NCBI RefSeq assembly: GCF_017744555.1
Contig: NZ_JAGIBD010000002.1
Location: 93,781-157,780, forward strand
DNA: 64,000 bases
Direction: 5' to 3'
Source: Cellulomonas sp.
GTDB lineage: Bacteria; Actinomycetota; Actinomycetes; Actinomycetales; Cellulomonadaceae
Made by a program: the position numbers and the translations under genes. The notes beneath the pieces were generated by a model. It searched no databases, was not told the DNA's origin, and worked only from the letters and a program-made list of their open reading frames with translations. Below, in pieces: positions 1,380 through 10,727 of this stretch (position 1 is the stretch's first letter; every line of letters begins with the position of its first letter).

Positions 1380-1464
1380 CCGGTGGCCCGGGCGGTGGGC
1401 GGCGAGAGCGGCCGGGACCTCGTCCGGGCCGCGGGCCGACGACGGGACCGCGTCGGGACGTCCG

Positions 1465-1470
1465 TAGGCT
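1465..1470 (+). promoter_or_regulatory. -10 hexamer of leaderless trmB
   Basis: TAGGCT ends seven bases before the GTG at 1478 and no Shine-Dalgarno sequence is present. This is the layout expected when transcription starts at the start codon. Confidence 0.55.
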
Positions 1471-1477
1471 GACCGTC

Positions 1478-2221
1478 GTGAGCCTGCCGTCCGACGCCTT
1501 CCGCCACGTGGCGTCGCGCCCGCACGAGCCGCTGCGCACGTTCCACCCGCGCCGGGCGGCCCTGGGCAGGGAGCGCCAGGACGCGCTGGAACGGCTGTGG
1601 CCGCGGTTCGGCTTCTCGGTGCACGACGACGACCACGGCCCGATGCCCCGGACGCCCGACGGGATGCTCGACGTGCGCGCCCTGTTCGGCCGGGACGCGC
1701 CGCTGGTGCTGGAGATCGGCTCGGGCATGGGCGAGACGACGGCCGCGATGGCCGCCGCCGACCCCGGCCGCGACTACCTGGCGATGGAGGCGCACCTGCC
1801 GGGGGTCGCGAACCTGCTCGGGCTCGTCGAGGAGCTGGGCCTGACGAACGTCCGCGTGGGGCACGGCGACGCGCTCGACCTGGTCCGCCGCGCGCTGCCC
1901 GAGGGGTCGCTGGACGCGGTGCACGTGTTCTTCCCCGACCCGTGGCCCAAGGCCCGGCACCACAAGCGCCGACTGGTGCAGCCCGCGCACGTCGCGCTGC
2001 TGCGGTCCCGGCTGCGTGTCGGCGGCACGCTGCACTGCGCGACCGACTGGGTGCACTACGCCGACCAGATGCTCGAGGTGCTGACCGCCGACCCGGGGCT
2101 CGTGAACACGGCCACGGGGTTCGTGCCACGGCCCCCGCACCGGCCGGTGACCAAGTTCGAGCAGCGCGGCCTGGACCTGGGCCACGAGGTGCGCGACGTC
2201 GTGGTGCGGAGGGTTCGATGA
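1478..2221 (+). CDS. trmB: tRNA (guanine-N7-)-methyltransferase TrmB
   Basis: The 247-aa enzyme makes m7G46 in the variable loop of tRNAs using S-adenosylmethionine. Visible motifs are the SAM loop EIGSGMGE (residues 79-86), the diagnostic FFPDPWPK (151-158) with HHKRRLV just after it, and TDWVHYA further on. Length and motif order match bacterial TrmB. The frame is open far upstream, so the GTG at 1478 was chosen because TAGGCT sits seven bases before it and conserved sequence (FRHVASRPHEP) starts right after. The stop overlaps the next start (ATGA), so the following gene is probably translationally coupled. Confidence 0.95.
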   Translation: MSLPSDAFRHVASRPHEPLRTFHPRRAALGRERQDALERLWPRFGFSVHDDDHGPMPRTPDGMLDVRALFGRDAPLVLEIGSGMGETTAAMAAADPGRDYLAMEAHLPGVANLLGLVEELGLTNVRVGHGDALDLVRRALPEGSLDAVHVFFPDPWPKARHHKRRLVQPAHVALLRSRLRVGGTLHCATDWVHYADQMLEVLTADPGLVNTATGFVPRPPHRPVTKFEQRGLDLGHEVRDVVVRRVR

Positions 2222-3024
2222 CGCAGGACGCGACGACGGGCGCGACGACGGGCGGGCGGGAGTTCCGGGTGCTCATCGTGCCCGGGGTCAACCCGGACCG
2301 GTGGCTGCGGGTGTGGCAGGAGCGGCTGCCCGACGTGCCGGTCCGGCTGCTGCACGCCGACCCGTCCGACGCCGTCACCGCCCTGCGCGCAGGCGGCACC
2401 GACGTGGCCCTGGTCCGCCTCCCCGTCGACCGGGACGGCCTGCACGTCATCCCGCTCTACACCGAGGCGACCGTCGTGATGGTGCCCAAGGACCACGTGT
2501 TCTCGGTCGCCGAGGAGGTCACCCCCGACGACCTGGCCGACGAGACGGTGATCCGTCCGGACGACGACCTCGTGGGCTGGTCGGACGCGCCCGGCACCCC
2601 GTTCGCGGGCGGAGCCGTGCCGACCACCCCCGACGCGGTCGACCTGGTCGCGGCCGGCGTCGGCGTGCTGCTGCTCCCCCAGTCGGTGGCCCGACTGCAC
2701 CAGCGCCGCGGACTGACGGCCCGCCCGGTGGTCGACGCCCCGGGGTCCCCGATCGGCCTGGCGTGGCTCGTCGACGCCGAGGACGACCTCACGCAGGAGT
2801 TCATCGGCATCGTGCGCGGCCGCACGGCCGGGTCGTCGAGGGGCCGGGGAGCACCGCCCGCCGAGCCGGCGCAACCGAAGGCCGAGGCGAGGAAGAAGCC
2901 GCCGTCGTCGCAGCGCGGCGGAGCGTCGAGAGGTCACGGTCCTTCGTCCGGCACCGCGAAGAAGACCCCGGGCCGAGCCGCGAGCGCCAGCCGCGGCGCA
3001 CGCAAGCCGCGCCGGGGCCGCTGA
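2218..3024 (+). CDS. LysR-type substrate-binding-domain protein lacking the HTH
   Basis: The 268-aa protein resembles only the ligand-binding half of a LysR regulator: residues about 17-210 form the two-lobe fold (FRVLIVPGVNP, VALVRLPVD, VVMVPKDH, GVGVLLLPQSVA). No N-terminal winged helix is present. In its place, residues 211-268 are a disordered tail very rich in Lys, Arg, Ser and Pro, which may bind nucleic acid. Similar tailed, HTH-less proteins occur in other actinomycetes (from memory). It overlaps trmB by 4 nt and is followed after 4 nt by the YihY gene, suggesting one transcript. The ligand is unknown. Confidence 0.75.
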   Translation: MTQDATTGATTGGREFRVLIVPGVNPDRWLRVWQERLPDVPVRLLHADPSDAVTALRAGGTDVALVRLPVDRDGLHVIPLYTEATVVMVPKDHVFSVAEEVTPDDLADETVIRPDDDLVGWSDAPGTPFAGGAVPTTPDAVDLVAAGVGVLLLPQSVARLHQRRGLTARPVVDAPGSPIGLAWLVDAEDDLTQEFIGIVRGRTAGSSRGRGAPPAEPAQPKAEARKKPPSSQRGGASRGHGPSSGTAKKTPGRAASASRGARKPRRGR

Positions 3025-3028
3025 GCGC

Positions 3029-3922
3029 ATGTCCGACGCACGCGGCACGGATCCCGGGCTCACCGGGCGTGCGCGCGGCCTCGCCACGGACCAGCTGCGA
3101 CGCCTCCAGGGCACCGGCGCGTGGCGGCTCTGGACCGCGTGCGCGACGGGGTTCGTGCGGATCGAGCCCTTCGACCGGGCCATGACCCTCGCCGCCCAGG
3201 CGTTCACGTCGATCGTGCCCGTGCTCATCGTGGCTGCCGCGTTCGGGCCGTCCCACCGGGGGCCGGGCGACGCGCTCGCCGACGCGGTCGGCCTCTCGCC
3301 CGAGGCCCGCGACGCCCTCGCCGGCAGCGTGCCGACGAGCGCGCAGGTCAGCAGCAGCATCGGCGTCGCCGGGATCCTCGTCGCGCTCATCACCGCGACC
3401 GCCTACTCGCGGGCGCTGGAGCGGATGTACGCGAAGATCTGGGAGGTCGAGCGACCCGGCCTGCGGACGGCGTGGCGGTGGCTCGCGACCATCGTCGCGG
3501 TCGTCGCAGCCGTCGCGCTGCTGCGGATCACCCGCGAGGCCACCGCCGGGGGGACGTGGTCCGGAGTCGCCGACGCGGCCGCCGAGATCCTGGTGTGGAC
3601 CGCCGTGTGGACGTACGTCCCGTGGGTGCTGCTGCAACGCGAGGTGGCGGCCCGCGTGCTGCTGTGCGGCGGGCTGCTGTCCGCGGTCGCACTCGCCGTG
3701 ATGAGCGCCGTCGGGGCGATCTACCTGCCGATCGCCCTCGAGACGGGCGCGCGGCAGTTCGGGGTGCTCGGGATGACGTTCGCGTACATCGGGTGGCTGT
3801 TCGCGCTGTCGTTCGCCGTCCTCGTCGCGTCGGTGGTGGGACGGGCGTGCGCGCTGGACGACGGGCGGCTCGGGCGCGTCGTGCGCGGGGAGCCGCTGTC
3901 CGACTGGCACGACGCGGGCTGA
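3029..3922 (+). CDS. YihY/BrkB-family (UPF0761) membrane protein
   Basis: The 297-aa protein has about six predicted transmembrane helices and the YihY signature: AMTLAAQAFTSIVP in the first hydrophobic segment, then RALERMYAKIWEVE, a conserved amphipathic stretch. Members were once called ribonuclease BN, a name now considered wrong; the true role is unresolved, with transport or envelope functions suggested. It starts 4 nt after the LysR-like gene. The gene ends in open space before the convergent DUF5997 gene. Confidence 0.8.
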   Translation: MSDARGTDPGLTGRARGLATDQLRRLQGTGAWRLWTACATGFVRIEPFDRAMTLAAQAFTSIVPVLIVAAAFGPSHRGPGDALADAVGLSPEARDALAGSVPTSAQVSSSIGVAGILVALITATAYSRALERMYAKIWEVERPGLRTAWRWLATIVAVVAAVALLRITREATAGGTWSGVADAAAEILVWTAVWTYVPWVLLQREVAARVLLCGGLLSAVALAVMSAVGAIYLPIALETGARQFGVLGMTFAYIGWLFALSFAVLVASVVGRACALDDGRLGRVVRGEPLSDWHDAG

Positions 3923-3970
3923 CCCGCCTGCGGGCGGCCAGCCGCACCGCAGGACGTCGGGCCGGAGCCG

Positions 3971-4366
3971 TCAGGCCCGCTCGGCCTCCGCGCGACGGTC
4001 CGCCTCACGCGCCCGCAGGCGGCGCTCCTCGCGGCGGACCTCCTCCTGCGTGGCCCGCTCGCGCACGAGCCACTCGGGCGGGTCGGCCACGAGCGCGGCG
4101 ATCTGCTCGGTGGTGAGCGGCTCGGTCACGCCGCCGCGCGCGAGCCCGCTGATCGACACGCGCAGCCGCCCGGCGACCACGTTGCGCGGGTGTGGGCCGT
4201 CGCGGTGCAGGTCCACGAGCCACTGCGGGGGGTTGCGCTGCAGCTCGGCGAGCTCCTCGCGCGTGATCGTCCCCTGCTGGAACTCCTCAGGGGTCGCCGG
4301 CAGGTACACGTCGAGCTTGGCGGCCGCCGTGGACGGCTTCATCTCCTGGGACTTCTTGGGGGTCAC
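3971..4366 (-). CDS. DUF5997 family protein
   Basis: The 131-aa soluble protein has the family pattern: TMKPATAAKKL-like start (here EMKPSTAAAKL), YLPATPEEFQ, NPPQWLVDLHRDGPHPR, ISGLARGGVTEPLTTEQI and a charged C-terminal helix. It is widespread in actinobacteria with unknown function; the WLxxLRxxGPHPRxVVAxxLxVS stretch hints at a small helical, possibly nucleic-acid-binding fold (inference). The GTG at 4366 is preferred over the internal ATG at 4342 because family members carry the extra eight residues and TACCCT lies six bases upstream. Confidence 0.8.
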   Translation of the reverse strand: MTPKKSQEMKPSTAAAKLDVYLPATPEEFQQGTITREELAELQRNPPQWLVDLHRDGPHPRNVVAGRLRVSISGLARGGVTEPLTTEQIAALVADPPEWLVRERATQEEVRREERRLRAREADRRAEAERA

Positions 4367-4372
4367 GGGACC

Positions 4373-4378
4373 AGGGTA
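4373..4378 (-). promoter_or_regulatory. -10 hexamer of the leaderless DUF5997 gene
   Basis: TACCCT (minus strand) lies six bases before the GTG at 4366. No ribosome-binding site is visible. Confidence 0.5.
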
Positions 4379-4395
4379 ACGAGCACGCCGCCCGT

Positions 4396-4421
4396 GGCCG
4401 GCCCCGCGACAGGGACCGGCC
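4396..4421 (-). terminator. Terminator hairpin after glgP
   Basis: GGCCGG pairs with CCGGCC and an inner CCC/GGG adds to the stem, 10 bp beyond the glgP stop. No T-run follows, as is usual at this G+C content. Confidence 0.55.
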
Positions 4422-4431
4422 GCGGCGAGGC

Positions 4432-6903
4432 TCACGCGTTCGGGTCGACGGGCGGCGTGTGCCAGATCCGGTCGATGTAGTCGCGCATGCTGCGGTCCGA
4501 CGAGAAGAACCCGGAGCGCGCCACGTTGAGGACGGCCGAACGGGTCCACGCGTCCGTGTCGGCGTACGCGGCGTCGACCCGTTCCTGCGCGTCGAGGTAG
4601 GACTGGAAGTCGGCGAGCACCAGGAACCGGTCCTCCTGCAGCAGGTTCGCGACGACGGGCTCGAACACCCGGCGGTCGCCGCCCGAGAACTTGCCGGACG
4701 CGATGAGGTCGAGCGCGTGCCGCAGCGTGCGGTTCGACTCGTAGTACGACGTCGGGTGGTAGCCGGCGTCGACGATCTCGGCGACCTCCGGCTCGGTGAG
4801 ACCGAACAGGAAGAAGTTCTCGTCGCCGACGAGCTCGCGGATCTCGACGTTCGCGCCGTCGTCGGTGCCGATGGTGAGCGCGCCGTTGAGCGCGAACTTC
4901 ATGTTGCCCGTGCCGGACGCCTCCTTGCCGGCGAGCGAGATCTGCTCGGACAGGTCGGCCGCCGGGATGAGCGTCTCGGCGAGCGTGACGTTGTAGTTCG
5001 CCGGGAACACGATGCTGAGGCGCCCCTTGACCGCCGGGTCCTCGTTGATGGTCCGGCCCACCGCGTTGATGAGCCCGATGATCTGCTTCGCCATCCGGTA
5101 GCCGGGGGCCGCCTTCGCACCGAACGCGAACGTGCGTGGCGTGACCTTCTCGACGTCGAGCGTGCCGGACGTGATCTGCTCGTACAGCGACACCACGTGC
5201 AGCAGCTTCAGCGTCTGCCGCTTGTACTCGTGCAGGCGCTTGACCATGACGTCGAGCATCGTGTCGGGGTCGAGCTCGATCCCGTCGCGCTCGCGCAGCA
5301 CGCCGACGAGGCGGTGCTTGTTGTTCGTCTTGACCTCGCGGAACAGCCGCCGGAACTCGGCGTCGTCGGCGAGCGGCTCGAGCTCCTTGAGGCGCTCCAG
5401 GTCGGTGACCCACCCGTCGCCGATCGCGCCCGTGATGAGCCCCGACAGCCCCGGGTTGGCGAGCCGGACGAACCGGCGGGGCGTGATGCCGTTCGTGACG
5501 TTCGTGAACTTCTCCGGGAAGTAGTCGGAGAAGTCGCTGAGCACCTTGTCGCGCAGCAGCTGCGAGTGCAGAGCCGCGACGCCGTTGACCTTGGTGCCCG
5601 CGACCGTCGCGAGGTACGCCATCCGGACGGACCGCTCGGGGTGCTCGGCGATGATCGACATGCGCCGCACCCGCAGCTCGTCGTCCGGGTACCGCTCGCG
5701 CACGCCCTCGAGGAACTCCTCGTTGATCCGGTAGATGATCTCGAGGTGCCGGGGCAGCAGCCGGCCCATCAGCTCCGCGGACCACACCTCGAGCGCCTCG
5801 GGCAGCAGCGTGTGGCACGTGTAGGCGAACACCTGCTGGACGGTCGCCCACGCGTCGTCCCACGCCCAGCCGCGCTCGTCGACGAGGATCCGCATGAGCT
5901 CGGGGATCGCGATGACGGGGTGCGTGTCGTTCAGCTGGAAGATGATGCGCTTCGGCAGGTTGTGCAGGTCGAAGCCCTCGGGCAGCACCTGGTCGAGGAA
6001 GTTGCGCAGCGAGCACGCGACGAAGAAGTACTGCTGCTGCAGGCGCAGCTCCTTGCCCTGCGGGGTCGAGTCCTCGGGGTACAGGACCTTCGAGATGTTC
6101 TCCGCGAACGTCTGCGCCCGGACGGCCTCGGCGTAGTCGCCCGCGTTGAAGATCTCCAGGTCGAACGCGCGGGTCGCCTGCGCGCTCCACAGCCGCAACG
6201 TGTTCACGCGGCCGTTCTCGTAGCCCGGGACCATGTAGTTGTACGGGACGCCGAGCACGCTCCAGCCCGGCACCCACCGGGTCCGCTCGGTGCCCTCGTC
6301 GTCGTACGTCTCGGTGTGACCGCCGAAGTTCACCGTGACGGCGGCCTCCGGGTGCGGGAACTCCCACGGCGACCCGAGGGCCAGCCAGTTGTCGGGCTTC
6401 TCCACCTGCCAGCCGTCGACGAACGTCTGCCGGAAGATGCCGTACTCGTAGCGGATGCCGTACCCGATGCACGGCACGTTCATCGTCGCGAGCGAGTCCA
6501 CGAAGCACGCCGCGAGCCGGCCGAGGCCGCCGTTGCCGAGACCCGGCTCCACCTCGGCGTCGCGCAGCGTCGCGAGGTCGATCCCGAGGTTGCCGAGCCC
6601 CTCCTCGACGACGTCCTGCAGGCCCGACGCGAGCAGCGCGTTGTCGAGCTGCCGTCCGAGCAGGAACTCCGCCGACAGGTAGGCCACCGACTTGGCCTGG
6701 AGCTCCTGCTGACGACGCAGCGTCTCGAGCCACCGGACCATGAGGTAGTGCCGGACCGTCCTCGCCAGGGCGAGGTACTGGTCGTTGACCGAGGCCCGGG
6801 ACAGGTCGACGCCCTGCCCGAAGTTGAGCTCACGCAGGAACTCGCGTGTGAAGCCGTCGACCGTGCGCTCGCGGGTGGCGATGGGTTCCGTGTTCTGGGT
6901 CAC
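4432..6903 (-). CDS. glgP: Glycogen/starch/alpha-glucan phosphorylase (GT35)
   Basis: The 823-aa cytosolic enzyme releases glucose-1-phosphate from alpha-1,4-glucans using pyridoxal phosphate. The cofactor motif EASGTGNMKFALNG is intact near residue 660, with the Lys that forms the Schiff base, followed by GTDDGANVEI. N-terminal AYLSAEFLLGR, NGGLGRLAACF and IRYEYGIFRQ are classic GT35 sequences. Length matches E. coli GlgP/MalP. The GTG at 6903 is chosen over the further upstream GTG/ATG because TAGCGT stands seven bases before it and families start close to this point. It stands alone between DUF5997 and the divergent DUF2975/XRE pair; the only glycogen gene in the window. Confidence 0.95.
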   Translation of the reverse strand: MTQNTEPIATRERTVDGFTREFLRELNFGQGVDLSRASVNDQYLALARTVRHYLMVRWLETLRRQQELQAKSVAYLSAEFLLGRQLDNALLASGLQDVVEEGLGNLGIDLATLRDAEVEPGLGNGGLGRLAACFVDSLATMNVPCIGYGIRYEYGIFRQTFVDGWQVEKPDNWLALGSPWEFPHPEAAVTVNFGGHTETYDDEGTERTRWVPGWSVLGVPYNYMVPGYENGRVNTLRLWSAQATRAFDLEIFNAGDYAEAVRAQTFAENISKVLYPEDSTPQGKELRLQQQYFFVACSLRNFLDQVLPEGFDLHNLPKRIIFQLNDTHPVIAIPELMRILVDERGWAWDDAWATVQQVFAYTCHTLLPEALEVWSAELMGRLLPRHLEIIYRINEEFLEGVRERYPDDELRVRRMSIIAEHPERSVRMAYLATVAGTKVNGVAALHSQLLRDKVLSDFSDYFPEKFTNVTNGITPRRFVRLANPGLSGLITGAIGDGWVTDLERLKELEPLADDAEFRRLFREVKTNNKHRLVGVLRERDGIELDPDTMLDVMVKRLHEYKRQTLKLLHVVSLYEQITSGTLDVEKVTPRTFAFGAKAAPGYRMAKQIIGLINAVGRTINEDPAVKGRLSIVFPANYNVTLAETLIPAADLSEQISLAGKEASGTGNMKFALNGALTIGTDDGANVEIRELVGDENFFLFGLTEPEVAEIVDAGYHPTSYYESNRTLRHALDLIASGKFSGGDRRVFEPVVANLLQEDRFLVLADFQSYLDAQERVDAAYADTDAWTRSAVLNVARSGFFSSDRSMRDYIDRIWHTPPVDPNA

Positions 6904-6910
6904 CTTTCGC

Positions 6911-6916
6911 ACGCTA
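6911..6916 (-). promoter_or_regulatory. -10 hexamer of leaderless glgP
   Basis: TAGCGT on the minus strand, seven bases before the GTG at 6903; no convincing Shine-Dalgarno site. Confidence 0.5.
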
Positions 6917-7016
6917 GCCACGACCGGGGGTCGCATGCCAGGCGGGAGGACCACGAAGTACGTCACCACGTCGCCCGGGGCATCCGAGCACGTCGCGTTC
7001 GACGCTCAAGTCGAGC

Positions 7017-7066
7017 ATCTCGACTGTCGATATGGCCGGCGGGAGCAGCACATCGATCGTCGATAT
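7017..7066. promoter_or_regulatory. Two palindromic operators before the DUF2975/XRE operon
   Basis: Two 17-bp imperfect palindromes, at 7017-7033 and 7050-7066, share the plan half-site-N3-TCGATAT. The left halves ATCTCGA and ACATCGA each differ by one base from the perfect mate ATATCGA. Their starts are 33 bp apart, about three helical turns. The second ends directly at the GGAGG ribosome site (7067-7071) of the DUF2975 gene, so a bound protein would block expression. The natural candidate is the XRE repressor encoded by the second gene of this operon. Confidence 0.6.
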
Positions 7067-7079
7067 GGAGGTCGGGCCG

Positions 7080-7793
7080 ATGACCACGACGGGGAGCACT
7101 GGCACGACCGTGCGGCGGGACGTCGCGACGGCGACCGTCGTCGGGATCGTCGTGGTCGCCGCCTGGCTGGCCGTCGTGGTCGGCGTGGTCGCCGGGGTGC
7201 GTGGCGTGCTCGACGGCGCGGCCGCGGTGCCCGTCGCGATGGGCCCGTCCGCACCGGCATGGTCGGAGGTCGTCGTGCCCTGTGTCGAGGGCGACGGGTG
7301 CGAGCCGTCGGTCTCCGCCGACGTGTGGCCGTCGGGCGAGCCGCTGCCGGCACAGCCGTCCGGGCCGCTGAGGCTCTGGGTGCTCGACGCGGACCCCCTG
7401 ACCGCCGCGCTCGCGGGGGTGCCCGACTGGCTCGGGCTCGTCACCGGCGGAGTCGTGACGCTGCTGCTCCTCCCGGTGCTCCGCGCGACGGCGGCGGGCC
7501 GCCCGTTCGCAGCCGGTGGTGCTCGGCGGCTCACGGTCGCGGCGGCCGTCGTCGCGGGTGCGTGGCTGCTGGCGCTCGCCCTGCCCGCGCTCGCGGGCCC
7601 GCGGGTCGTCGCGCTCAGCGAGCAGGCGCCCCTCAGCGACGGGGTCCGCACGTGGGACCTCCCGTCCGGGTGGCTCGTCCCGGACGTCCACGTGACCTGG
7701 TGGCCGCTCCTCGTCACGCTGCTGCTGGGGGCGCTCGCGGCGGCCGCCGCCCGCGGCGCGCGCCTGGCGGCCAACACCGAGGGGCTCGTGTGA
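7080..7793 (+). CDS. DUF2975 family membrane protein
   Basis: The 237-aa protein has four predicted transmembrane helices: about residues 18-40, a second pair around the middle (VPDWLGLVTGGVVTLLLLPVL, LTVAAAVVAGAWLLALALPAL) and one near the C-terminus. The loop between helices 1 and 2 is long and predicted outside. DUF2975 proteins are typically paired with a small XRE regulator, as in Bacillus yoaS-yozG; that pairing is exactly what follows here. The ATG at 7080 has a GGAGG eight bases upstream, which rules out the earlier in-frame ATG at 7032. Its stop overlaps the next start (GTGA). Function unknown. Confidence 0.8.
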   Translation: MTTTGSTGTTVRRDVATATVVGIVVVAAWLAVVVGVVAGVRGVLDGAAAVPVAMGPSAPAWSEVVVPCVEGDGCEPSVSADVWPSGEPLPAQPSGPLRLWVLDADPLTAALAGVPDWLGLVTGGVVTLLLLPVLRATAAGRPFAAGGARRLTVAAAVVAGAWLLALALPALAGPRVVALSEQAPLSDGVRTWDLPSGWLVPDVHVTWWPLLVTLLLGALAAAAARGARLAANTEGLV

Positions 7794-8017
7794 GCGACGA
7801 CGACACGCCCCACCGGGTCGTGTGCCGGCTCGGCGCGCTGCTCGACGACCGTGGCATGACCCTCGTGCAGCTCGCCGTCGCGACGGGCATCACGGTGGCG
7901 AACCTGTCCGTGCTGAAGAACGGGCGGGCGCGGGCGATCCGGTTCAGCACGCTCACGGCGGTGTGCGACGCGCTCGGGTGCACCCCGGGCGACCTGCTCG
8001 ACCTGGAACCGGCGTGA
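7790..8017 (+). CDS. Small XRE-family transcriptional regulator (YozG type)
   Basis: The 75-aa protein is a bare helix-turn-helix domain: LDDRGMTLVQLAVATGITVANLSVLKNGRARAIRFSTLTAVCDALGCTPGDLL. The recognition helix lies in ITVANLSVLKN. This is the YozG-like class that accompanies DUF2975 membrane proteins. It overlaps the membrane-protein gene by 4 nt, implying coupled translation. It probably represses its own operon through the palindromes at 7017-7066 (inference); the membrane partner may sequester it or signal to it. Confidence 0.85.
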   Translation: MSDDDTPHRVVCRLGALLDDRGMTLVQLAVATGITVANLSVLKNGRARAIRFSTLTAVCDALGCTPGDLLDLEPA

Positions 8018-8201
8018 GCTAGCCCTCGCGACGACCTCCGGACCAGGTCCAGCGCGTCCTGCGCGAGGAGCTCGCGGAACGCGGAGTGCCCGTCTACCAC
8101 CTCGTCGAGGACATCGCGGGCTTCGTCCCGAACCGGACTGACGCCGACACGCGACGACGAGCCGGACGTCCTGGCGCAGCGACGCAGCGACGCATCGGGT
8201 C

Positions 8202-8207
8202 TACTGT
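8202..8207 (+). promoter_or_regulatory. -10 hexamer of a leaderless open frame
   Basis: TACTGT ends seven bases before the GTG at 8215, supporting that GTG as the original start of the membrane-protein part of the chimera. Confidence 0.4.
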
Positions 8208-8214
8208 TCGCGTC

Positions 8215-8775
8215 GTGCCAGAGCGCCCTGTCGACCGCGTCGCCCGGCATCGCGACGACACGCGGGTCGTCAAGGCGGGCGGCACGCGGTCCCGCGTCGC
8301 GACCACGCTGCTGGTCGGCGGGCGGCTGCTCCCGGTGGTGACCGTGGCGGCGGTGGCGTGGAGCCGCCTCACGCGCGACTCCTGGGCGGGAGCGCCGCTG
8401 GACGACGCGGGCTTCTCGACCGCATGGCAGCCGAACCTCGCGATGGCGCTCTGCGTCGTCCTAGGGTTCGCGTTGCCCTTCGTCGTCCTTCCGGTGGGCT
8501 CGTCGGCGCTCGCGACCGGCAAGGGCGACCGCCTGTCGCTGGAGTCCTCGCCGCACGGTGCCGGCCGGAACCATTCACGGTCCGCCGCCCGCCGGCTGTT
8601 CACGCACGAGCAGCTGCGGGAGGCGATGGCCGGGATCGAGTTCCGTGACACCGACGCGTTCATCGACGAGATCCCCGCGGCGTACAAGGACGTCGAGCGG
8701 GTCATGGCCGACGCCGCCGACCTCGTCGAGGTCCGCCACACGCTGCGGCAGATCCTCAACGTGAAGGGCGACTGA
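8215..8775 (+). pseudogene. Chimera: membrane-protein N-terminus joined to the last ~85 residues of RtcB
   Basis: The open frame encodes 186 aa in two unrelated parts. Residues 1 to about 100 hold two hydrophobic segments (TTLLVGGRLLPVVTVAAVAW and MALCVVLGFALPFVVLPVG) of an unrecognised membrane protein. From about residue 102 it is the C-terminus of the RNA ligase RtcB: GKGDRL, the guanylate-binding HGAGR, DEIPAAYKDVERVMADAADLVEVRHTL and the terminal NVKGD. RtcB is normally about 400 residues, so its N-terminal 80%, with the metal-binding His and Cys residues, is missing here. The fusion is in frame at about 8517 and points to a deletion between two genes. It should have no ligase activity. 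Whether the chimera is still made is unknown. Confidence 0.75.
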
Positions 8776-8777
8776 CG
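8716..8777 (+). repeat. Direct repeat copy 1: last 20 codons of rtcB
   Basis: 62 bp covering the codons for ADLVEVRHTLRQILNVKGD, the stop and two more bases. It matches 9512-9573 at 58 of 62 positions. This copy keeps the family's usual residues (HTLRQ, NVKGD). Confidence 0.9.
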
Positions 8778-8780
8778 CAT

Positions 8781-8811
8781 CGGCCCCCACTCGTTCACCG
8801 GGTGGGGGCCG
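8781..8811 (+). terminator. Terminator hairpin after the rtcB remnant
   Basis: A perfect 10-bp stem, CGGCCCCCAC with GTGGGGGCCG, around an 11-nt loop, only 5 bp past the stop codon. It probably served the intact rtcB. Confidence 0.75.
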
Positions 8812-9073
8812 GACTCGCTCTGAACGGCGGTCCGAGAACGTCGGCCAACCGCCGATCGGCGCCCCACACCGCTCGTCGGTCGAGAACGAGCCCGAACGGT
8901 GGCGTGAAGCCATCGCGGTCCGGGAAAGAGCTAGTCCGCTGCCTCGTGGACTGCCACATCGGTGCGGACGCCGCCAAACGGAACGGGTCGCCTGTGGATA
9001 ACCGTCAATGGCCGGCGCGGCCGACCTGTAGACAGCCTCCACTGCTTGAAGAGTTAAGAGTACGGGGGCAGGT
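8812..9073. other. Non-coding stretch before the endonuclease gene
   Basis: About 260 bp in which no convincing gene is seen on either strand; the short open frames have no ribosome site or recognisable protein. The last 80 bp are visibly richer in A and T than the surroundings (GAAGAGTTAAGAGTA), consistent with imported DNA. No group I intron core could be identified by eye. Confidence 0.5.
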
Positions 9074-9571
9074 ATGGACGACGCCGAGGCGGCGTATATT
9101 GCTGGGTTCTTCGACGGCGAAGGATCCCTCGGGATATACAGCAACGGCACGACTGGGCGTTGCTTGCGAGCGCAGATCACGCAAGCCGAGTCCAAGGAAG
9201 CTCGGGAGACGCTTGAGCGCTGGCGCGCGCGATGGGGCGGTTCGCTCTGCACACTGAATCGGTCGCTGCGTCGCCACGCAATGATCTGGCAGGTAAGCGG
9301 CGACAACGCGGCCGACTTTCTTCGGGAGATCCGGCCATGGCTCCGACTCAAGGCGGATCAGGCTGACATCGCTATTGCGTGGCAGTCGGCCCGCCCAGCG
9401 ACGCGCCGAGACGAGCGAGGTCGCATTCTCGGAAGGACCCCGGCCGAAAGGGCACGCGACGATCTGGCGGCCGCCACTCTCGTGGCCATGAAGCGGCCAG
9501 CGGCCGAGCCTGCCGACCTCGTCGAGGTCCGGCACACGCTGGGGCAGATCCTCAACGTAGAGGGCGACTGA
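9074..9571 (+). CDS. LAGLIDADG-type homing endonuclease, ending in a duplicated rtcB tail
   Basis: The 165-aa product begins with the LAGLIDADG signature AAYIAGFFDGEGSLGI, whose Asp/Glu pair normally binds catalytic metal, followed by a second half with WQVSGDNAADFLREI. One motif suggests a homodimer. Such enzymes cut long, rare sites and spread themselves into them. The final 20 residues (ADLVEVRHTLGQILNVEGD) are a copy of the RtcB C-terminus, read in frame. Codon use is less GC-biased than neighbouring genes. GGGGGCAGGT just before the ATG at 9074 supports the start. The adjacent rtcB remnant suggests rtcB was the target gene. Confidence 0.75.
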   Translation: MDDAEAAYIAGFFDGEGSLGIYSNGTTGRCLRAQITQAESKEARETLERWRARWGGSLCTLNRSLRRHAMIWQVSGDNAADFLREIRPWLRLKADQADIAIAWQSARPATRRDERGRILGRTPAERARDDLAAATLVAMKRPAAEPADLVEVRHTLGQILNVEGD

Positions 9572-9573
9572 CG
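9512..9573 (+). repeat. Direct repeat copy 2: rtcB tail fused to the endonuclease frame
   Basis: 62 bp, 58 identical to 8716-8777. The four changes alter two residues (Arg to Gly, Lys to Glu). The distance between copy starts is 796 bp. No terminator hairpin follows this copy. Confidence 0.9.
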
Positions 9574-9618
9574 GCCGTCGGCGCGACATGTCGAGACCCC
9601 GCGCGATCTGATGGGTCC

Positions 9619-10458
9619 ATGAGCACCGTCCCGAACATCGCCCTGAACAACGGCGTGCAGATCCCGCAGCTCGGCTACGGCGTCTTCCAGATCCCGCCCG
9701 AGCGGACCAAGGACGCGGTCCTCCAGGCGTTCGACGTCGGCTACCGCCACATCGACACCGCGCAGAGCTACCGCAACGAGGAGGGTGTCGGCGCGGCGCT
9801 GCGGGAGTCCGGGCTGGCCCGCGGCGACGTCTTCGTGACCAGCAAGCTGAACAACGGCGCGCACGCCCCCGCGGCCGCGCACGAGGCGTTCGACCGGACG
9901 CTGGAGCGGCTCGGCACCGAGTACGTCGACCTGTTCCTCATCCACTGGCCGCTCGCGATGCTGAGCGACTTCGTGGAGACCTGGCGGGCGCTCGAGGACA
10001 TCTACGCGTCCGGACGGGCCAGGGCCATCGGGGTGTCGAACTTCCAGCGCGCCCACCTGCGCCGGCTGCTGGAGGAGACGGACGTCACCCCCGCCGTCAA
10101 CCAGATCGAGGTGCACCCCTACCTCACGCAGGTCGGCCTGCGAGCGCTCGCGTTCGAGCACGGGATCGCCGTCGAGGCGTGGTCTCCCCTCGGCCAGGGA
10201 GCCGTGCTGGGCGACGAGACGATCGGGCGCATCGCACGGAGCCACGGCAGGACGCCGGCGCAGGTGATCCTGCGGTGGCACCTCCAGCACGGCCACGTCG
10301 TGTTCCCGAAGTCCTCGACACGGGCGCGCGTGGAGGAGAACTTCGACGTCTTCGACTTCGTGCTGAGCGACGAGGACCTCGTGGACATCGACCGCCTGAA
10401 CCGGGACGAGCGCACGGGTCCGGACCCCGACACGTTCGACCGGATGCCCCCGGCCTGA
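9619..10458 (+). CDS. Aldo/keto reductase
   Basis: The 279-aa cytosolic oxidoreductase has the complete AKR catalytic tetrad: Asp in GYRHIDTAQSY, Tyr in the same stretch, Lys in VTSKLNN and His in LIHWPL. The NADPH-binding end is present as VFPKSSTRARVEENFDVFDF. It is closest in type to the AKR5 / 2,5-diketo-D-gluconate reductase group, which reduces many aldehydes and ketones. The ATG at 9619 starts the conserved NIALNNGVQIPQLGYGVF. It lies directly downstream of the endonuclease module, whose stop is 47 bp away. The physiological substrate is not apparent. Confidence 0.9.
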   Translation: MSTVPNIALNNGVQIPQLGYGVFQIPPERTKDAVLQAFDVGYRHIDTAQSYRNEEGVGAALRESGLARGDVFVTSKLNNGAHAPAAAHEAFDRTLERLGTEYVDLFLIHWPLAMLSDFVETWRALEDIYASGRARAIGVSNFQRAHLRRLLEETDVTPAVNQIEVHPYLTQVGLRALAFEHGIAVEAWSPLGQGAVLGDETIGRIARSHGRTPAQVILRWHLQHGHVVFPKSSTRARVEENFDVFDFVLSDEDLVDIDRLNRDERTGPDPDTFDRMPPA

Positions 10459-10463
10459 CGGGC

Positions 10464-10727
10464 TCAACCGCGCGGGCCCGGCCCCGGCTCGCGTGTGCTC
10501 CGTGGGCGGCCTGGTCCGCGGGTGGGTCCGGCCTCGGCCGGGAGGCGGCCGGCGTCCTTGAGCGCCCGGCGGAGCAGCATGTCGATCTGCGCGTTGACGC
10601 TGCGCAGGTCGTCGGCGGCCCACCGGGCGAGCGCGGCGTGCACGGCGGGGTCGAGGCGGAGCAGGACCGCGTGGCGCTCGGCGGCGGCTCGCCGACGCTC
10701 CGCCCCCGACCCGTCGGAGGTCGCCAT
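10464..10727 (-). CDS. Ribbon-helix-helix (Arc/HicB-antitoxin-like) DNA-binding protein
   Basis: The 87-aa protein holds a short RHH fold: strand AVLLRLDPAVHAAL, helix WAADDLRSVNAQIDMLLRRALKDAG, then a basic disordered tail. It is annotated as HicB-family antitoxin in related genomes, but no toxin gene is nearby. It begins 2 nt after the SPFH stop and is therefore co-transcribed with it. I chose the ATG at 10727 because upstream codons overlap the SPFH coding end. It is the probable binder of the paired GATATC palindromes in front of the operon (inference). Confidence 0.75.
   Translation of the reverse strand: MATSDGSGAERRRAAAERHAVLLRLDPAVHAALARWAADDLRSVNAQIDMLLRRALKDAGRLPAEAGPTRGPGRPRSTREPGPGPRG

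Follow-up and report, generated by a model that had tools for sequence, protein, structure and literature searches.

A LAGLIDADG endonuclease gene ending in a copy of the rtcB tail in Cellulomonas sp., and its relatives beside rtcB in phages and bacteria

Homing by 3'-end replacement in described systems

In the literature that we found, homing by replacement of the 3' end of a target gene is described only in fungi, in yeast nuclear genes and in fungal mitochondria. The WHO elements of Torulaspora and Lachancea yeasts reside at FBA1, and in the passages that describe them (Coughlan et al. 2020, eLife, PMC7282813) an endonuclease gene of the LAGLIDADG superfamily is flanked on one side by the target gene, its 3' end replaced, and on the other by a stranded 3' piece of that gene, as we propose here for rtcB. 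The endonuclease-bearing alleles are, in the same passages, distinct at their 3' end, a further likeness to the rtcB elements (PMC7282813). WHO elements are nuclear, encode an intein-derived protein with a zinc finger and target FBA1, whereas the rtcB elements belong to phages and bacteria and encode a small, predicted I-CreI-like enzyme. Moreover, the WHO fragments measure, as far as those passages go, about 400 bp with a dispensable reading frame, whereas the rtcB fragments measure about 60-84 nt and form an in-frame fusion in three of seven elements. Because the 165-amino-acid protein of our locus gave no intein or zinc-finger match (Pfam gave nothing beyond its single LAGLIDADG domain) and appears I-CreI-like, we regard the rtcB element as one that would work like WHO without classing it as WHO.

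Fungal mitochondrial mORFs that carry a foreign gene C-terminus have been described for atp6, atp9, cox2 and nad3 of Glomus and atp6 of Allomyces (PMC3630166), and for atp6 and cox2 of Phlebia (PMC4019555). In the portions of both papers that deal with them, an inserted 3' end is followed by a LAGLIDADG or GIY-YIG ORF and, downstream, by the native 3' end, and relatives resemble the native copy more closely in nucleotides than they do the inserted one, as in two of the phages described below (L056 and L146). They differ from the rtcB elements in being mitochondrial and in their target genes. The free-standing endonucleases of T-even phages lie near their targets and co-convert flanking sequence, as proposed here, but the relevant passages of PMC2988022 mention no second 3' end of the target gene left stranded. 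The arrangement reported here was not found among the papers listed from the open-licence PubMed Central literature on homing endonucleases, rtcB, WHO elements and bacterial 3'-end replacement, and rtcB goes unmentioned in a survey of phage homing endonucleases (PMC10448857).

The rtcB locus of the window and its empty counterpart

The window, the whole 64,000-nucleotide stretch of Cellulomonas sp. DNA that was analysed, carries two direct copies of an rtcB tail with an endonuclease gene between them. A first-pass annotation, made from the letters alone, had noted 62-bp repeats at 8716-8777 and 9512-9573 with 58 of 62 identical positions; this is confirmed for the 62-nt core, and the ungapped alignment extends to 72 nt (8706-8777 and 9502-9573, both forward strand) at 65/72. 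The 4-kb region contains 15 direct-repeat families, of which this one is the longest and the most alike; the next-longest repeats are 40 nt and 65-73% alike, and none of the shorter ones exceeds 85%.

The same annotation had taken the repeats for rtcB tails, and copy 1 indeed closes an ORF (8086-8775, with a GTG at 8215 as an alternative possible start) whose residues 140-228 match positions 331-426 of the Pfam RtcB profile (PF01139, E 1e-22). The remaining rtcB 3' end (8517-8775, forward strand) comprises about 86 codons with the stop, fused in frame to upstream sequence within ORF 8086/8215-8775, close to the 85 codons first reported. It is the sole RtcB match in its own genome (4.30 Mb, 139 contigs, 90% complete), and the remainder of the gene is missing from this locus, as had been claimed. 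A hairpin of 13 pairs, one of them G-U, follows at 8781-8811 (forward strand), placed as in a relative of the same genus (G020); we read it, like the earlier annotation, as the rtcB terminator. The spacer (8812-9073, forward strand) has no counterpart in G020. Then comes the endonuclease gene (9074-9571, forward strand; 165 amino acids), whose body spans 9074-9511 and whose C-terminus is an RtcB tail: as first noticed, the ORF runs in frame through copy 2 and ends on the stop codon of that copy, which we read as a displaced rtcB tail. The description of the DNA between the repeats as A+T-richer also stands, with a GC content of 66% in the spacer and 66% in the endonuclease gene against 73% for the window. 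The leader of the downstream gene (9572-9618, forward strand) measures 47 nt, compared with 85 in G020, and the hairpin of G020 is absent after copy 2, standing after copy 1 only. The aldo/keto reductase gene itself (9619-10458, forward strand; Pfam PF00248) is a right flank common to G020, where it directly follows rtcB.

G020 is collinear with the window on both flanks (1457-6981 at 90% and 9502-10460 at 83%) and has a full rtcB of 392 codons (start taken at the first in-frame ATG) with a single tail; a single terminator-like hairpin and the same reductase gene follow. Judged by this collinearity, the G020 locus is an empty site, the kind of relative, with an intact rtcB, a single tail and no module, that the first-pass annotation had proposed to look for, and it bears out the proposal of an endonuclease module at the rtcB 3' end with a doubled tail and the loss of most of rtcB. 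Relative to G020, the window has about 0.8 kb extra between the first tail and the reductase gene and lacks the 5' part of rtcB. Window positions 1457-6981 and 8517-8811 can be aligned to the G020 locus (L032), the latter at 90% nucleotide identity, and the intervening stretch cannot. This stretch (6982-8516, no strand assigned) replaces the 5' part of rtcB and the upstream sequence of G020, and its 3' end is a membrane-protein-like fragment, so labelled from hydrophobic stretches only, with homologues in two further genomes, G023 (53%) and G002 (45%).

An RtcB match was found in 28 of the 58 genomes searched, own genome included, and several genomes that are 99-100% complete gave none. As rtcB is patchy across the genus, its loss in the lineage of the window is not unusual. 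Further empty sites are present in the phages SirSheldon, PegLeg, Bongo and BrutonGaster and in six relatives of Kutzneria.

The endonuclease and its relatives beside rtcB

The endonuclease of the window carries the motif IAGFFDGEG in a single LAGLIDADG domain and matches PHROG 5046 (E 1e-23); its Pfam matches fall below the curated cut-off. Its structure model (mean pLDDT 84, with the RtcB-derived tail modelled at low confidence) comprises helices (H) and strands (E) in the order H3-16, E17-23, E29-38, H41-54, E57-62, E68-75 and H76-89, an alpha-beta-beta-alpha-beta-beta-alpha fold shared with I-CreI, I-CvuI and I-MsoI, which were the Foldseek matches (E down to 2e-7). As modelled, the protein is an I-CreI-like LAGLIDADG endonuclease. 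I-CreI is intron-encoded, as are I-CvuI and I-MsoI, whereas the window enzyme adjoins a protein gene and carries an RtcB-derived tail. The seg and mob enzymes of the T-even phages differ in belonging to the GIY-YIG and HNH families.

A translated search of 50,697 phage records gave 45 matches, the best three being OneUp, Pumpernickel and Skinny, in which the endonuclease directly follows rtcB and starts within 14 nt of its stop. Seven of the 45 were examined (20 were among the matches listed), and in the other four, DotProduct, Whitney, Navo and Lacusarx, the endonuclease lies at other genes. In DotProduct (L041, 2595-4586) and Whitney (L042, 2619-3482), related LAGLIDADG domains lie within ORFs annotated as DNA methyltransferase or methylase, and in the Sphingobium phage Lacusarx (L044, 2935-3480) a related LAGLIDADG ORF overlaps the start of an annotated tmRNA gene. 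Among bacteria, a pattern-based contig scan covering one genome per species (84,980 species) yielded 10 loci, the best from Kutzneria sp. 744, where the endonuclease lies 86 nt after rtcB; this genome (L045, G775) has a second rtcB elsewhere. IMG/VR added two rtcB-linked phages, L056 (also present as a second contig, L144) and L146. The viral scans covered the best 80 of 323, the best 80 of 109 and the best 80 of 392 relatives; OneUp and L056 were the only rtcB-linked endonucleases in the last two of these. Of the loci compared with RtcB queries, 6 of 173 in one set and 3 of 80 in another gave a match, and every matching locus either belongs to the rtcB-side group or repeats one of its members. 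Used alone as query, the window endonuclease had no relative in viral contigs or plasmids, and across 395 other genomes of the order it gave two weak matches (32-35% identity) and no more; a profile search of 394 genomes of the class returned the own genome only.

The seven distinct endonucleases at rtcB (window, OneUp, Pumpernickel, Skinny, Kutzneria, L056 and L146) form one group in a tree built from 87 of 129 non-identical rows (support 86/62), and in none of 500 label shuffles were the rtcB-linked labels as clustered. We regard the support for an rtcB-linked clade as moderate. The first-pass annotation had held that homologues lying elsewhere, with no rtcB nearby, would speak against its proposal. 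This applies in part, as distant LAGLIDADG relatives do lie at other genes, for example at thyX in Navo, but the seven closest elements found are at rtcB.

The rtcB 3' ends, the tail copies and their explanation

We propose that the window locus is probably the decayed remains of a homing element that targets rtcB specifically. The unit would consist of an I-CreI-like LAGLIDADG gene together with the rtcB 3' end upstream of it. The enzyme would cut an endonuclease-free rtcB about 20-28 codons before the stop, and repair from the element-bearing allele would give the recipient rtcB the donor 3' end (copy 1, no longer cut) and the endonuclease gene, while the tail that the recipient had before would be left behind downstream (copy 2). 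This leftover tail would, in the window and two phages, have come to lie in frame as the C-terminus of the endonuclease. In the window, the 5' part of rtcB, about three quarters of the gene, was also lost and the rest joined to the membrane-protein-like fragment. We infer cleavage, the cut site and homing, as well as the origin of the window locus by the same steps, from comparison of sequences.

Alignments with endonuclease-free sister phages show that Skinny and OneUp each have a replaced rtcB 3' end next to the endonuclease. Skinny and SirSheldon share 54/69 nt at the end of rtcB against 1140/1169 over the rest (p 2e-9), and OneUp and BrutonGaster 50/69 against 1104/1149 (p 2e-10), where the 69-nt cut was chosen after OneUp was seen. 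Skinny and SirSheldon are almost identical up to the last 180 nt, where 140/180 positions agree without gaps (143/179 in gapped bins) and 9 of 59 amino acids differ, one of them in the last 25 positions; the endonuclease follows. OneUp and BrutonGaster are identical over 82 nt up to the V-M codons, which adjoin the point where the repeat of the window begins, and from this breakpoint 19 of the last 68 nt differ. No such 3' excess was seen in pairs of empty sites (SirSheldon/Bongo 69/69; SirSheldon/Reindeer 56/69 against 961/1128; Big4/Zooman 67/69). The rtcB end of Kutzneria is not replaced (61-63/69 with four relatives whose identity is 92-93%, and 59-61/69 with two farther ones; no p below 0.12), and rtcB of Pumpernickel, about a quarter different along its whole length from its nearest relatives, is too distant for a 3'-end comparison. 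As for a donor of the Skinny 3' end, the other 146 matching phage records all stand at 60-80% identity. The rtcB genes of SirSheldon (L135) and Bongo (L137) have identical ends but differ in internal blocks, about 300-900 nt from the 3' end, a mosaicism unconnected with the endonuclease. The junction between rtcB and the lipoprotein/band-7 gene holds a ParB-like nuclease gene in Reindeer (L138, 1810-2145) and the endonuclease in Skinny.

In three of the seven rtcB-linked elements (window, L056 and L146), the endonuclease ends in an in-frame RtcB tail. The fused tails of L056, KDISIIMENQKDLVEILVELTPLGVIKG, and L146, KDIDWVMEQQKDLVKILVELTPLAVIKA, are each identical to the tail of their own rtcB at 20 of 28 residues, and the two copies are strongly diverged in nucleotides (55/84 in L056, 52/84 in L146, where 372 nt with another ORF separate rtcB from the endonuclease). 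Tail scores are 91-95 for these three loci and at most 48 for the others among 173 and 80 loci (repeat fetches included); the Skinny, OneUp, Pumpernickel and Kutzneria loci have no tail copy. A scan for tail repeats in 188 endonuclease loci (5 too short) gave L056 and L146 as its only clean cases; among the remaining high-scoring loci, the four inspected by alignment were all compositionally biased frames. A candidate tail copy in L223/L305 was likewise rejected, being two tandem LAGLIDADG ORFs (750-1247 and 1334-1954 in L223) that share near their ends a 20-nt string, GAAGGTTCAGAGACTATAAT, which we take to be reminiscent of a group I intron core. Separately, the phage contig L249 carries at 3001-3102 a second copy of the rtcB 5' part (RtcB residues 11-44), about 400 nt upstream of the full gene, a region with no Rfam match.

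The RtcB of L056 retrieved 33 viral loci, one of them truncated within rtcB, and in the 2.5 kb that follow rtcB only the two L056 contigs have a tail copy or a LAGLIDADG motif. Once the L056 contigs themselves and four loci that were truncated or nearly duplicate had been set aside, there were 27 relatives, not independent of one another, for comparison. The fused tail of L056 is nearer in nucleotides than rtcB's own 3' end to 24 of the 27 (the reverse in 1, ties in 2), and that of L146 to 23 (the reverse in 4); two of these relatives, L263 and L266, were aligned out of register, and leaving them out gives 22 v 1 for L056 and 21 v 4 for L146 among 25. At the amino-acid level the fused tail is favoured in L146 (19 v 3) and not in L056 (7 v 10). 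In both phages the identity of copy 1 falls short of that of the gene body by 5-6 points, a lower value than 23 of 24 control genes give, and copy 2 is level with the gene body (+0.010 and -0.005). In nucleotides, then, the fused tail is shown by these alignments to be the more native-looking copy in L056 and L146. Between the two phages, the fused tails differ mostly by silent changes (dN 0.20, dS 1.47), a rough ratio because it rests on 28 codons. Copy 2 of the window gives no sign of constraint against G020 (dN 0.127, dS 0.123).

Ordinary intronless homing with co-conversion, the tail copies being accidents of imprecise repair without a role, would account equally well for the replaced 3' ends of Skinny and OneUp, and Skinny, OneUp, Pumpernickel and Kutzneria, with no tail copy, are in line with it; co-conversion is usual in phage homing, according to the relevant passages of PMC2988022. 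This reading predicts neither in-frame tails in two branches of the group nor native-looking fused tails beside an imported-looking rtcB end, and we consider it unlikely, though the strongest of the competing explanations.

The window taken alone is compatible with another origin, a local tandem duplication of the tail, for instance by sister-chromosome repair of a break in rtcB, with no mobile unit. Both of its copies are nearest G020 and have the codon choices of G020, copy 1 (71/72 over 8704-8775) more so than copy 2 (64/72 over 9500-9571), and the window alone therefore gives no sign of an imported 3' end. This order is, as far as the alignment tells, the reverse of the one predicted for an imported copy 1; under homing, the donor allele would need to have been almost identical to the rtcB of the recipient. 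Other observations that count against the homing reading are the position of the hairpin after copy 1 only, the Kutzneria locus with neither tail copy nor replaced end, the ORF that separates rtcB from the endonuclease in L146, and the amino-acid comparison for L056. Against local duplication, the same architecture recurs in two phages, and the endonuclease gene between the copies has, in the other genomes of the order searched, just the two weak matches given above; we hold local duplication to be somewhat less probable still than accidental tail copies.

The first-pass annotation had likened the locus to integrative elements that recreate tRNA 3' ends, and a direct repeat of a gene's 3' end flanking an insert, which would restore the gene, is what an integrative element with the rtcB 3' end as its attachment site would leave. 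The likeness is not supported, and homing that replaces the 3' end of the target, as in WHO elements and mORFs, compares better. Four further ORFs in the roughly 0.7-kb insert were compared with Pfam without a match, so that there is no sign of an integrase, and the repeat is absent in the phage relatives Skinny, OneUp and Pumpernickel or strongly diverged, as in L056 and L146; we consider such an element highly improbable. Descent from an intein or group I intron that once interrupted rtcB, with copy 2 as the downstream exon, is just as improbable: LAGLIDADG enzymes often live in introns and inteins, but the rtcB reading frame already ends at the stop of copy 1, positions 8000-10500 have no Rfam match at the gathering score, and the endonuclease starts at most 14 nt from the rtcB stop in Skinny, OneUp and Pumpernickel.

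Homing near the V-M codons with replacement of the 3' end would be the simplest account of all the loci. The candidate target region in the window lies at 8692-8712 (forward strand), where the codons read V-E-R-V-M-A-D and those of G020 I-D-Q-V-M-A-D; the breakpoint of the replaced OneUp tail falls at the same codons. Three substitutions among 252 nt are private to the window in comparison with 21 relatives, and two of them (8692 and 8697) fall in this 21-nt stretch, which was chosen post hoc and in which 3 of the 21 relatives, more divergent, are also privately changed. These two changes might be those of an allele that is no longer cut. A pseudopalindromic target was considered and rejected: G020, SirSheldon and PegLeg have 7 of 9 pairs but BrutonGaster 5 of 9, scores at least as high occur elsewhere in the genes, and the score of OneUp is not below that of BrutonGaster. 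We suggest, as a tentative extension, that an rtcB-specific family of homing elements in phages and bacteria swaps the 3' end of its target, and that in part of this family the stranded tail has been captured and selected at the protein level.

Since the same anatomy as in the fungal systems occurs in phages and bacteria, at a different gene and with a much smaller enzyme, the strategy is suggested to have arisen more than once. Homing that replaces the 3' end would explain the abruptly different rtcB 3' ends of Skinny and OneUp, for which Skinny with SirSheldon or PegLeg, and OneUp with BrutonGaster, are the phage pairs for comparison. That phage RtcB protects against tRNA cleavage is put forward as speculation in the passage of PMC3203893 that raises it. 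If phage RtcB does mend tRNAs cut by host defences, the element would be a parasite of a counter-defence gene, and the RtcB tail that it captured could have a role beyond that of a recombination arm.
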